Source of the DNA: Fictibacillus nanhaiensis
GTDB lineage: Bacteria > Bacillota > Bacilli > Bacillales > Fictibacillaceae
NCBI GenBank assembly: GCA_016401345.1
Contig: JAEACG010000003.1
Span: 186,001 to 250,000 of the forward strand
Reading direction: 5' to 3'
Length of the DNA stretch: 64,000 nt
In this document: in pieces, positions 4,682 to 60,493 of the stretch
Numbering within the stretch: the first letter of the stretch is position 1
Layout of the letters: each line of letters starts with the position of its first letter
The notes under the pieces: generated by a model
Seen by the model: only the letters and a program-made list of their open reading frames with translations
Told to the model about the DNA's origin: nothing
Databases searched by the model: none
Made by a program: the position numbers and the translations under genes

Positions 4682-6046
4682 TTAAGAATGGTTCGTCGCT
4701 TTTCTACGAAGAATCATTGCTGTTGTTGCAGAAGCTAAGATCAATCCGAACAAGCTCCAAAGAATAGCATCGTTTGTTGATTGGCTCATTCCGCCCATAC
4801 CTGTTTTCGGCATATCAGATGGCTTTTGACCAGCAAACTTATCTGGGAACTGATCAACGATCGCACCAGATAGAGATTGTCCTACTCCAAACATGTGAGC
4901 ATAAGCTTCAGAGATATTTTTGTAGGCATCAGGATAATCTTTACTCGTATAACTGTTGAAAGCTGCTAGTAACTGGTCAACGTGTACTTTTAATCCTTCT
5001 TCTAAGTCAGCTGCTTTTAGTCGTCCTTCTGTTGCTGTGTCTAGGAATTTTGCTTGTTCCATACGGTACTCATCGAGTTCAGCGACCGCTTGCTTTTTGC
5101 CTTCTTCATTCTGTTCTGCTGTTGCTGTTACATAGTCAACGAAGTAACCGATGTGGCTGCTCCAGATTTCTTTAAATTGCGCTGCACCCTCAGCACCATA
5201 TACAGATTCTACAGCTGCTGTGATGTCATCTGTGTTTTCGTTCAGTTCAGCTGCCGCTGCTTCAAAGTCTTTAGCGCCATCAATTCCTTTTTGCATTGTT
5301 AATGCTGCTAATGCTGCATGGGCTGAGAACACACTGTTCAAATCAGCACGAAGATCAGCTGCAGGTGTATCTACTGATTTGTTTTCAAACTTGTCAGGGA
5401 ACTGATCCGTGATCGCCCATGAAAGACCCTTACCTGTCATAAACATGTGGTGCATCGCTTCTGAAATGTTGTCATACGCTTTGTCATAATCACCAGTTCT
5501 ATAACTTTCAAACGCCCAAATCAATTGGTCGACGTGTACTTTCAAACCTTCTTCTAAATCAGCAGCTTTTAATCTTCCTTCTGTTGCTTTATCTAAGAAA
5601 TCAGCTTGTGTTACACGATATTTATCCAGTTCAGCGAGTGCTTGTTTTCTGCCTTCTTCATTATTTTCAGCAGTTGCTGTTACATAATCTACGAAATAGC
5701 CGATGTGGCTGCTCCAGATTTCTTTGAACTGTGCTCCAGCTTCTTCACCATAAACAGATCCAACCGCTTTAGACAGTGCCTCTGTATTTTGGTTCAGCTG
5801 TCCAGCCGCTGCTTCAAAGTCTTCTTTTCCGTCAATTCCTTTTTGCATCGCTACTACAGCTAAGAATGCATGCTCCGAAAGAAGAGTATCCAATGAAGCG
5901 CGAAGATCGATTGCCGGGTTAGATACTTCAGCAGACATTGGTCCTTTGCTATGATTTTCATGACCATGTGCATTTGCTACTGTGAATGTAGGTATTAATA
6001 AAGAAACACTTAACGGTACGGCTAAAAGTGCTTTTTTCATTTTCAT
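4682..6046 (-). CDS. sortase-anchored surface protein, two histidine-bearing helical repeats
   Basis: 454-residue exported protein. A signal peptide (about residues 1-26, cleavage after VANA) precedes a His-rich mature start (HGHENH). Two copies of a ~174-residue all-helical domain (about 47-220 and 231-404) repeat with a fixed offset of 184: His59/243, His114/298, His171/355 and His200/384 match, as do blocks such as FKEIWSSHIGYFVDYVTATA. The C-terminus is a cell-wall sorting signal: MPKTG (412-416), a hydrophobic helix, and RRKATNHS. From memory, relatives carry the automatic label 'copper amine oxidase', but no amine-oxidase domain is visible. Four invariant histidines per bundle suggest metal or heme binding (inference). 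Start ATG 6046 is seven bases after AAGGAGAG. Confidence 0.85.
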   Translation of the reverse strand: MKMKKALLAVPLSVSLLIPTFTVANAHGHENHSKGPMSAEVSNPAIDLRASLDTLLSEHAFLAVVAMQKGIDGKEDFEAAAGQLNQNTEALSKAVGSVYGEEAGAQFKEIWSSHIGYFVDYVTATAENNEEGRKQALAELDKYRVTQADFLDKATEGRLKAADLEEGLKVHVDQLIWAFESYRTGDYDKAYDNISEAMHHMFMTGKGLSWAITDQFPDKFENKSVDTPAADLRADLNSVFSAHAALAALTMQKGIDGAKDFEAAAAELNENTDDITAAVESVYGAEGAAQFKEIWSSHIGYFVDYVTATAEQNEEGKKQAVAELDEYRMEQAKFLDTATEGRLKAADLEEGLKVHVDQLLAAFNSYTSKDYPDAYKNISEAYAHMFGVGQSLSGAIVDQFPDKFAGQKPSDMPKTGMGGMSQSTNDAILWSLFGLILASATTAMILRRKATNHS

Positions 6047-26220: not shown

Positions 26221-26264
26221 GGGGTCTGACCCGGGGTCAGACCCCATTTCCCACGTTATTTCCC
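26221..26264. repeat. GGGGTCAGACCCC palindrome, copy 1 (overlaps prmC stop)
   Basis: GGGGTCTGACCC and GGGGTCAGACCCC are joined, followed by ATTTCCCACGTTATTTCCC. The right half is shared with the copy at 30830, where a full 51-bp palindrome exists. The last GGGAAATAA on the minus strand provides the final Gly-Lys codons and stop of prmC. Confidence 0.8.
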
Positions 26265-31453: not shown

Positions 31454-31550
31454 AATCCACAAATTTAGAGCTTGAATCCAAAAGTTTTGGCCTTCAATCC
31501 ATAAATTCCTTCGTTCAATCCACAAGTTTTGGCCATTTATCCACGAGTCG
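31454..31550 (+). repeat. array of five AATCCA-type cores at an exact 21-bp period
   Basis: Units begin at 31454, 31475, 31496, 31517 and 31538 (AATCCACAAATT, AATCCAAAAGTT, AATCCATAAATT, AATCCACAAGTT, TATCCACGAGTC). Same core family as the arrays at 12089 and 42479. It lies past the 3' end of tdk, in the 311-bp gap 31355-31665. Confidence 0.88.
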
Positions 31551-36960: not shown

Positions 36961-37089
36961 GTTGATTTCCGCTCCAGGTTGCACGCTTTCCATGGGGCGA
37001 ACGGTGAGCCTCCTGCCGCGTTGCGCCTTTAGGAGTCTCCACCTGATCGCTCGTCCCATAGGAGTCGGCAACCTTCCGCTACAATCAAC
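36961..37089 (-). repeat. palindromic intergenic element A, copy 3
   Basis: 129 bp from GTTGATT to AATCAAC. Internal blocks are the family ones with substitutions (CATGGGGCGAACGGTGAGCC; CCCATAGGAGTCGGCAACC). It is 71 bp from copy 4 and in the opposite orientation. Confidence 0.88.
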
Positions 37090-37160
37090 TTGCAAGAAGC
37101 TTTAAAAAATCAAAAGCTTAACTAGAAGAAAGTTACTATCAAATTTTGTCTTCTATGATT

Positions 37161-42478: not shown

Positions 42479-42576
42479 AATCGGCGAGTTTCGGCTCTGA
42501 ATCCAAAAGTTGTTGCCGTTAATCCACGAGTTTCCGCCCTGAATCCAAAAGTTTTTGCCTGCAATCCACGAGTTGC
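42479..42576 (+). repeat. array of five AATCCA-type cores at an exact 21-bp period
   Basis: Units at 42479, 42500, 42521, 42542 and 42563. The cores alternate: AATCGGCGAG, AATCCAAAAG, AATCCACGAG, AATCCAAAAG, AATCCACGAG, so the larger period is 42 bp. It is past the 3' end of rpoE and upstream of the pyrG promoter. Confidence 0.9.
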
Positions 42577-42632
42577 ATCTAAAAAACAAAAACCAGCGCC
42601 AAAAGGCACTGGTTCTAATGAGTCACAAAGAC

Positions 42633-43337: not shown

Positions 43338-43590
43338 GTTGATTTCCACTCCAGGTTGCTCGCTTTCCGCGGGGCAGGCGGTGAGCCACTTGCCGCTTCG
43401 CGCCCTTAAGTGTCTCACCTGTTTAGTTGCAGTGGCTAGCCCCTCGAGGTCAAAAGTTAAATGGTCAAGAAGGCAAAGTGCGCCTTCCTAGCCCATTCAC
43501 CTTTTGCTTGTCGGGGCCGAACGAGCCACTTCCACTTTTCGAACTGCCCGCTTGTCCCGCAGGAGTCTCGCACCTTGCGCTCCAATCAAC
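43338..43590 (-). repeat. palindromic intergenic element A, copy 5, interrupted by element B
   Basis: GTTGATT to AATCAAC over 253 bp. The outer parts (43338-43421 and 43546-43590) join into a normal ~128-bp element A; 124 bp of element B are inserted after CTCACCTG. Confidence 0.9.
43422..43545 (-). repeat. nested element B, copy 1 (124 bp)
   Basis: From TTTAGTTGCAGTGGCTAGCC to TTTTCGAACT. Inverted segments: GTGGCT with AGCCAC, GAAGGC with GCCTTC, and AAAAGGT with a C-rich partner (one mismatch). Nearly identical over its length to copy 2 at 57342. Confidence 0.88.
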
Positions 43591-43706
43591 TTGCATATGG
43601 TGAGAATTGAAGTAGCAAAGGTCACCAGCTTTAAAAAACCTTTTTTTAAAAGACTCTTTCTAAATGCCAGTGCTAAGAGAGACCTTTGAGAATACTTCCT
43701 CGAATA

Positions 43707-43834
43707 GTTAATTGAAGCGGAAGGACGAGACTCCTGCAAGATGAGTGGGACAGGTGAGACCATTCAATGACGCAAAGCGGCGAATGGGCTCACCGCACAC
43801 CCTGCGGAAAGCGAGTCCTGAAGCGGAAATTAAC
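43707..43834 (+). repeat. palindromic intergenic element A, copy 6, with altered matching termini
   Basis: 128 bp bounded by GTTAATT and AATTAAC instead of GTTGATT and AATCAAC: both ends changed and still pair. It stands 116 bp from copy 5, head to head. Together they fill the 745-bp gap 43152-43896 between rpoE and icmF; no gene is seen. Confidence 0.88.
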
Positions 43835-48808: not shown

Positions 48809-48936
48809 GTTGATTTCCGCTCCAGGATACTCGCTTTCCGCGGGGCAGGCGGTGAGCCCCTTGCCGCTTCGCGCCCTTAAGGGTCTCACCTGACCGCCAG
48901 TCCCGCAGGAGTCTCGCACCTTGCGCTCCAATCAAC
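48809..48936 (-). repeat. palindromic intergenic element A, copy 7
   Basis: 128 bp from GTTGATT to AATCAAC, with consensus-like blocks (CGCGGGGCAGGCGGTGAGCC; CCCGCAGGAGTCTCGC). It separates meaB from the acyl-CoA dehydrogenase genes. Confidence 0.92.
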
Positions 48937-49043
48937 TGCAAGGGTGTTATTAAAAGCATTTTTAGCAACACTCTGTTATGAATAGAGAAACACTGATTTA
49001 GCAAGAACTTTCCCTAGCCACTATGTCGCAAAACTTCGCTCTC

Positions 49044-57251: not shown

Positions 57252-57297
57252 AAAAGTAAGAGAAGTGCTATGAAGAATATGAAAGTGGTTGATTTCC

Positions 57298-57539
57298 GTT
57301 TCAGGTTGCTCGCTTTCCGCGGGGCAGGCGGTGAGCCCCTGTCTAGTTGCAGTGACTAGCCCCTCGAGGTCAAAAGTTAAACAGTCAAGAAGGCAAAGTG
57401 CGCCTTCATAGCCCATTCAACTTTTGCTTGTCGGGGCTGAACGAGTCACTTCCACATTTCGGACTGCCGCTTTGCGCCGTTAAGGGTCTCACCTGACCGC
57501 TTGTCCCGCAGGAGTCGGCAACCTTACACTCCAATCAAC
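57298..57539 (-). repeat. palindromic intergenic element A, copy 8, interrupted by element B
   Basis: GTTGATT to AATCAAC over 242 bp; removal of 57342-57465 leaves about 118 bp of element A. The insertion follows GTGAGCCCCTG, a different internal position from copy 5. Accounts for the gap 57252-57622. Confidence 0.9.
57342..57465 (-). repeat. nested element B, copy 2 (124 bp)
   Basis: From TCTAGTTGCAGTGACTAGCC to ATTTCGGACT. Stem GTGACT/AGTCAC (copy 1 has GTGGCT/AGCCAC), AGCCCC/GGGGCT, AAAAGTT/AACTTTT, and the inner hairpin GAAGGC/GCCTTC. It is the same length as copy 1. Confidence 0.88.
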
Positions 57540-57622
57540 TTGTCTTTGAAGCAAAACATAAGCTCTTTTCTACTGCACCAATCATGTAATCAAAAAAACA
57601 TACTAATGCCAGGGGGCCAAAC

Positions 57623-60178: not shown

Positions 60179-60288
60179 TTTTGGAACCTCCTAAGCATTG
60201 ATGTGCTTCAATAGAATTCAAGAAAAGCTTTGGAATTCCTTTTTTGTTTTGGATGCGGTGTGGATGATGGTAATCGAGCATAACTCTG

Positions 60289-60464
60289 GAATCGATCATA
60301 AATCTCTGGAATCGATCATAAATCCCTCGAATCGCTCACAAACCTCTCGAATCGCTCATAAATCCCTAGAATCGCTCACAAACCTCTCGAATCGCTCACA
60401 AATCCCTAGAATCGCTCACAAACCTCTCGAATCGCTCACAAATCCCTAGAATCGCTCACAAATC
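60289..60464 (+). repeat. array of nine GAATCG(C/A)TCA cores at a 20-bp period
   Basis: Units begin every 20 bp from 60289 to 60449. The first two read GAATCGATCATAAA, the rest GAATCGCTCAYAAA. The last seven alternate two spacer endings (ACCTCTC and ATCCCTA), giving a 40-bp higher repeat. It lies past the 3' end of argS, in the gap 60179-60534. Confidence 0.92.
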
Positions 60465-60493
60465 AAAGAACACCACTCTCCTAAACTCTCCAA

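Follow-up and report, generated by a model that had tools for sequence, protein, structure and literature searches.

A family of structured hairpin elements nested in palindromic repeats of Fictibacillus and found across the Bacillales

A 64,000-nucleotide stretch of the Fictibacillus nanhaiensis genome (hereafter the window; genome G000) carries two copies of a small structured element, B, each of which interrupts a copy of a palindromic repeat, A. On balance, we lean towards a reading in which B is a Bacillales family of non-autonomous mobile hairpins that reached A by a few founding insertions and then spread by recombination between A copies. Covariation of the B stems, orthologous A copies with and without B, alternative insertion sites, double insertions and recombinants between B copies are all observed directly. 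A copies in these various states, whether empty, filled, doubly inserted or recombinant, are natural experiments that can help to tell transposition from recombination as the way in which small bacterial repeats spread.

Two insertions in repeat A and their orthologous loci

Element B was located in the window by direct reading, a repeat search and a covariance model. Copy 1 (43419..43546, plus strand, including CTG at both ends; covariance-model core 43420-43540) lies in site 1 of an A copy delimited by direct reading and the repeat search (43338..43590, plus strand), where GTCTCAC precedes B and CCCGC follows it. Copy 2, a member of the GTGACT/AGTCAC subfamily (57339..57466, plus strand, including the end CTGs; core 57340-57460), lies in site 2 of another A copy (57288..57540, plus strand), with GTGAGCCC before it and CCGC after it. 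According to the repeat search, the two B copies are 89% identical over a 142-bp paired stretch. The same search provided an uninterrupted A copy as reference for the empty state (48809..48937, plus strand) and a further one without B that has CTCCTGCCGC at the site-2 position (36961..37090, plus strand). A second A-like copy (81%), inverted and without B (43706..43834, minus strand), shares the intergenic stretch of B copy 1 (L198 1307-1435).

The sequence-only reading had described an insert of about 124 bp at two different internal sites of two A repeats, and both direct reading and the repeat search confirmed it. The two-sided stem change that it reported, GTGGCT/AGCCAC in one copy and GTGACT/AGTCAC in the other, is present, as is the conserved hairpin GAAGGC/GCCTTC. 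It was also right that the second A is interrupted, but it had that repeat start at 57298, whereas the repeat match begins at 57288. A single fixed position of B within A, which it had named as an argument against insertion, is not what was found, since its positions within A differ between copies.

To compare orthologous loci, 18 genomes of the genus were examined at the window loci of copy 1 (locus 1) and copy 2 (locus 2). At locus 2, A contains B in 3 of the 18 (G000 and G002 at site 2, G003 at site 1) and lacks it in nine, three of these A copies being inverted and that of G016 being in two pieces; five genomes have neither A nor B, and G017 has B plus a partial A. In the alignment, the A copy that is filled in G000 stands uninterrupted in G013 and G008, and G014 and G005 have an empty A located in the corresponding gap. 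At locus 1, A with B is in place at site 1 in four genomes and inverted near a contig end in one, A without B is found in five (with well-aligned flanks in G015 and G004), a partial or inverted A only in G010, and neither element in seven. Filled A copies have CTG on both sides of B, while the empty site has one CTG (or CTTG). At both sites CCGC lies close downstream of B: it follows without a gap at site 2, and most site-1 copies have a single A or C in between. B therefore shows presence and absence at orthologous sites, as does a non-autonomous transposable element, or MITE in the wide sense, and these filled and empty copies support the earlier view that B is inserted, small, non-autonomous and strongly structured. 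Precise loss of B by conversion could mimic gain. Four genomes (G003, G004, G013, and G015) have a doubly inserted A with both B copies intact. In addition, G008 and G015 differ from G000, G002, G003, and G004 in the type of sequence that forms the middle of A at locus 1, despite orthologous flanks, which points to exchange between A copies.

BLAST searches of the own genome returned at least 39 matches to B (best 40 of 44 candidates scored), with E values of 4.7e-4 to 7.9e-62, so that the repeats are not due to chance. Two of these matches are the ends of one copy, leaving 38 places, all of which were read: the 30 best, and 8 others of which most are truncated or have internal deletions. At each of these scored places B lies in A or directly against A sequence, although A is reduced to its right end at L096 and to its left end at L093 and L095, and B has the same orientation relative to A wherever this is readable. 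An exact 44-base A/B junction string yielded 26 matching stretches, all from Fictibacillus. In the own genome A is commoner than B (at least 40 scored matches, of 183 candidates). The uniform placement and orientation of B would be expected if A with B inside were amplifying as one composite element, a reading that we regard as very improbable: orthologous A copies occur with and without B at both loci, and G012 has A but no genome-wide match to B. Furthermore, the similarity of B copies was uncorrelated with that of their A arms in 25 copies of G000 (r of -0.03 to 0.21, p at least 0.10), and likewise in 8 copies of G015 and 12 of G016, a weak test because even the A arms are for the most part uncorrelated with one another. 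No conversion tract was delimited in these B and A-arm comparisons within G000, G015, and G016.

Structure and covariation of element B

The covariance model describes B as a structured element family of about 121 nt that forms a single asymmetric hairpin built of six helices and internal loops. In alignments of 16, then 20 diverse copies, fixed and largely unpaired motifs, CTCGAGGTC and GCTTGTCG, lie between variable stems. To test covariation, 61 matches taken from 38 loci were aligned to the covariance model. Two-sided changes were found in 27 of 31 pairs (18.7 in shuffles), paired cells amounted to 95.9% (76.4% in shuffles and at most 45.9% when the partner was slid) and the covariation score was 0.513 (0.155 in shuffles), controls that overstate the case because the alignment was fitted to the same structure, which was itself derived from 20 of the tested sequences, and because the copies are related. 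Two-sided cells numbered 309 compared to 70.5 in shuffles, counts that do not represent independent events since the B copies are paralogues. The excess of two-sided changes nonetheless answers the objection, raised in advance by the sequence-only reading, that stem changes might not be compensatory. In the favoured reading, the stems of B would evolve by paired changes, while the short, largely unpaired motifs would stay fixed.

The minus strand of copy 1 folds better than the plus strand, both as RNA (z of -5.0 versus -2.6) and as DNA (z of -4.1 versus -1.6). With the alignment fitted to the minus strand, wobble pairs numbered 120 on that strand and 12 on the plus strand, or 38 and 12 when two G-U-rich columns were left out. 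This minus-strand excess, together with conserved, largely unpaired motifs amid covarying stems, is compatible with B being copied mainly for a selected function, as an RNA (or DNA-binding site), mobility being incidental. We consider this improbable, as the number of B copies ranges from none to many among genomes within one genus, and at 16 loci where B stands alone or in arrays no rule was apparent for its orientation relative to adjacent, crudely called open frames.

No Rfam covariance model matched B in the window and 28 loci. The only Rfam gathering match of the window is an L31-Firmicutes ribosomal protein leader (RF03156; 32761-32794, minus strand).

Site-linked subfamilies, recombinants and the search for a mobiliser

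We collected 104 distinct near-full-length B copies from same-genus loci, correcting the site labels of L016, L084, and L264 by eye. Site 1 holds 83 of them, site 2 (on both sides) 16, and a mirror-arm site two, while three are mixed or truncated (L021, L030, and L091). Both mirror-arm copies (L074 and L245) belong to G017 and keep a CTCAC context. A GAC 5′ arm is present in 16/16 site-2 copies, in 2/83 site-1 copies (L004 and one in L103) and in neither mirror-arm copy; in one site-2 copy (L261) the matching 3′ change is absent, which leaves a mismatch. The arm is accordingly associated with the site (16/17 site-2 versus 2/83 site-1 copies, p = 1.9e-15, counting L091 as a site-2 exception and leaving out the two mixed copies; p = 1.3e-15 when the mirror-arm copies are counted as site 1). 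On a B tree built without the covarying columns and with the mirror-arm copies labelled site 1, the site changes 2 times, compared to 13-16 times in 200 shuffles. The compensatory stem change is therefore a lineage (subfamily) marker tied to site 2. Repeated free insertion is unlikely to separate subfamilies by site, whereas a few founders followed by recombination would, making this linkage a clue to spread by recombination. Two of the mixed copies, L021 and L030, have a site-2 left flank and a site-1 right flank, and L030 has, in addition, a 5′ arm of the site-2 type, a 3′ arm of the site-1 type and an internal duplication. Both look like products of recombination between two B copies within one doubly inserted A.

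These observations fit a scheme in which B would have entered A within the genus at site 1, at site 2 and, in G017, at the mirror-arm site. The first entry would be a true transposition by a putative enzyme, probably acting on the single-stranded folded strand, and later spread to further A copies within the genus would proceed mainly by recombination or gene conversion, with the A arms supplying the homology.

We favour founding insertions plus recombination over repeated motif-targeted transposition. The latter would have B transposing into A time and again in trans, directed by a motif or hairpin and catalyzed by an HUH/RAYT-like or IS110-like enzyme, with a target preference for each subfamily. 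Some features do suit such a mechanism, namely the CTG before and after B and the CCGC close downstream at both sites, the CTCAC context kept by the mirror-arm insertions and the further positions within A seen in family f28 (see below). The linkage between site and subfamily speaks against it, and we judge it possible but unlikely. The earlier proposal that B targets a short motif within another repeat is weakened likewise, since sites 1 and 2 hold different B subfamilies and 13 or 14 of 20 loci from other genera lie outside A.

The sequence-only reading had noted that the window encodes no transposase, which holds for the Y1 (HUH) family, its single own-genome match being outside the window. 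A Y1 transposase match is present in 18/18 genomes of the genus, and a RAYT profile gave one match each in nine genus members within the order sample; the own-genome protein matches the NCBIfam REP-associated transposase, below cut-off. A RAYT, suggested earlier as a possible partner, thus exists, but the gene in G000 is flanked on both sides by GGGGTCTGACCCC and not by B. Among 20 RAYT loci (4.4-4.5 kb each, palindromes being accepted with at most 1 mismatch anywhere in the stretch), GGGGTC(A/T)GACCCC was found in 11 and GGTGCC(A/T)GGCACC in 5, with one of the two in 16/20 and a B-like match in 1/20. The former is likely the cognate REP of the resident RAYT, as it flanks the RAYT gene on both sides. 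Copies of it also occur at window positions 26233, 30849, and 51512 and at 1964 and 2708 of L128.

Across 299 genomes, 149 had matches to both B and RAYT, 66 to B only, 27 to RAYT only and 57 to neither, a co-occurrence (odds of 4.8, p = 5.8e-9, uncorrected for kinship and obtained with different E-value limits) that lends repeated transposition some support, as does one B-like element located 0.4 kb from a RAYT gene (L140:1495-1605). However, 66/215 B-bearing genomes are without a RAYT match, and RAYT loci hold other palindromes. For these two reasons, RAYT is unlikely to be the mobiliser of B, and the Y1 and RAYT searches found no mobilising enzyme for it. The L140 element has B-like ends and a different middle, which suggests a wider superfamily with a common outer stem.

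Element B across the order and among known repeats

In an order-wide search with at most 12 places scored per genome and strict filters, the covariance model matched B in 215/299 sampled genomes and 82/116 genera of the order Bacillales, thereby defining an abundant, strongly covarying family that no searched Rfam family matches. BLAST matches were found in 23/60 genomes, own genome counted, and searches with one B copy each found no match in plasmids or phages. We then read 20 loci of other genera, which are the best-scoring ones, one per genome, and not a random sample. A-like repeats surround B at six of these, all in family f28, with B at site-1-like positions in L179 and L183 and, as read by eye, elsewhere in A in L177, L178, L180, and L182. 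The placement of B in A is doubtful at L181, and at the remaining 13 loci B stands alone (e.g., L185, L188, and L189) or in head-to-tail arrays (L186, L195, and L196). The array at L098 has a period of 123 to about 127 nt. Bacillus tandem repeats have, in the available part of one survey, mostly 20-21 and 52 nt units and not 123-127 nt (PMC8161180). Arrays of 20- and 21-nt repeats, of a size class described there, occur in the window at 60259-60484, 31454-31548, and 42479-42594.

Outside A, copies in other genera stand alone, some of them by terminator-like hairpins, form head-to-tail arrays, or occupy a hairpin loop within the gene for a second RNase P RNA. Around 16 standalone copies, the mean folding energy of 50-nt stretches was -10.4 upstream and -5.2 downstream, compared to -6.7 for control stretches, with a median upstream rank of 0.11. 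A stable hairpin just upstream of standalone B is only suggestive, several upstream stretches being B remnants. One such locus was aligned for 10 loci of a family, with G067 and G061 too diverged to judge: in G069 and G064 a terminator-like hairpin precedes B, a remnant persists in G068, and the same locus is without B in G072, G065, G066, G070, and G071. No clear target duplication was seen at this one aligned locus, which adjoins a gene that we take to be odhB.

Two RNase P RNA genes are present in 6/17 genomes of family f20. The second gene is long in two of these (513-514 nt; G052 and G074) and shorter in the other four (390-402 nt; G060, G062, G063, and G075), and the covariance model finds B in both long versions (L169 of G052 and L170 of G074). 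In G052, B occupies the loop of a short hairpin between CUAAG and UAUG, presumably the P12 region. The gene otherwise keeps the consensus around it, so that the element sits inside an RNA gene whose consensus is preserved (checked for G052). G075, of the same genus as the B-bearing genomes, has no B in its second rnpB, but its loop sequence differs, which precludes an exact empty-site reading. A broader model, which we hold to be doubtful, would make B a mobile structured RNA (or folded single strand) present across the order, with a conserved internal-loop receptor and a preference for the hairpins of other elements or RNAs, resulting in layered nesting. If true, it would imply elements inside elements, with Bacillaceae-1 in B, B in A, and B in rnpB.

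Bacillaceae-1 RNA (RF01690) is, like B, a high-copy structured repeat of the same order, but its structure and sequence are unlike those of B. It was matched in 21/41 genomes, with up to 92 matches in one. Within units of B-type arrays it occurs at L101:5895-5960 and L351:1501-1567 (G042 and G085), and Rfam scans of eight B loci matched RF01690 only where it was nested in B. G042, G040, G081, and G082 have 57 to 92 matches each.

REPs, as described in the accessible part of one report, are small extragenic hairpins with compensatory changes that form tandem clusters and insert into or next to each other (PMC3116915). B resembles REPINs and RAYT-mobilised REPs in these traits, as far as that text goes, and in having a RAYT-like gene in its host. 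However, a REPIN is a doublet of short REPs, whereas B folds into a single long, asymmetric hairpin whose internal loops are conserved, and does not consist of two short inverted REPs around a spacer; RAYT REPs also flank their cognate RAYT, and B does not flank that of its host. B thus behaves like a REPIN or MITE, yet lacks tested defining features of RAYT REPs. The insertion sequences ISPsy8, ISPa11, ISPpu9, and ISPpu10 target REP palindromes according to the portion available (PMC1525189), recalling B in A in their use of a palindromic repeat as target, but they carry transposases, while B is 124 bp long and non-coding. The bcr1 and Bhal families of Bacillus are stem-loop repeats 74-167 bp in length, of which bcr1 has mobile traits (PMC2267715). 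Their likeness to B is one of description, and identity with B or A is possible. Literature searches with exact A and B sequence strings returned no paper on a Bacillus repeat by title, and word searches gave no title or abstract start in which B is recognisable, searches that families without comparable printed sequence (Bhal-1 and Bhal-2) could escape.

The window also contains two 300-nt direct repeats of 76% identity, at 4905-5204 and 5457-5756.
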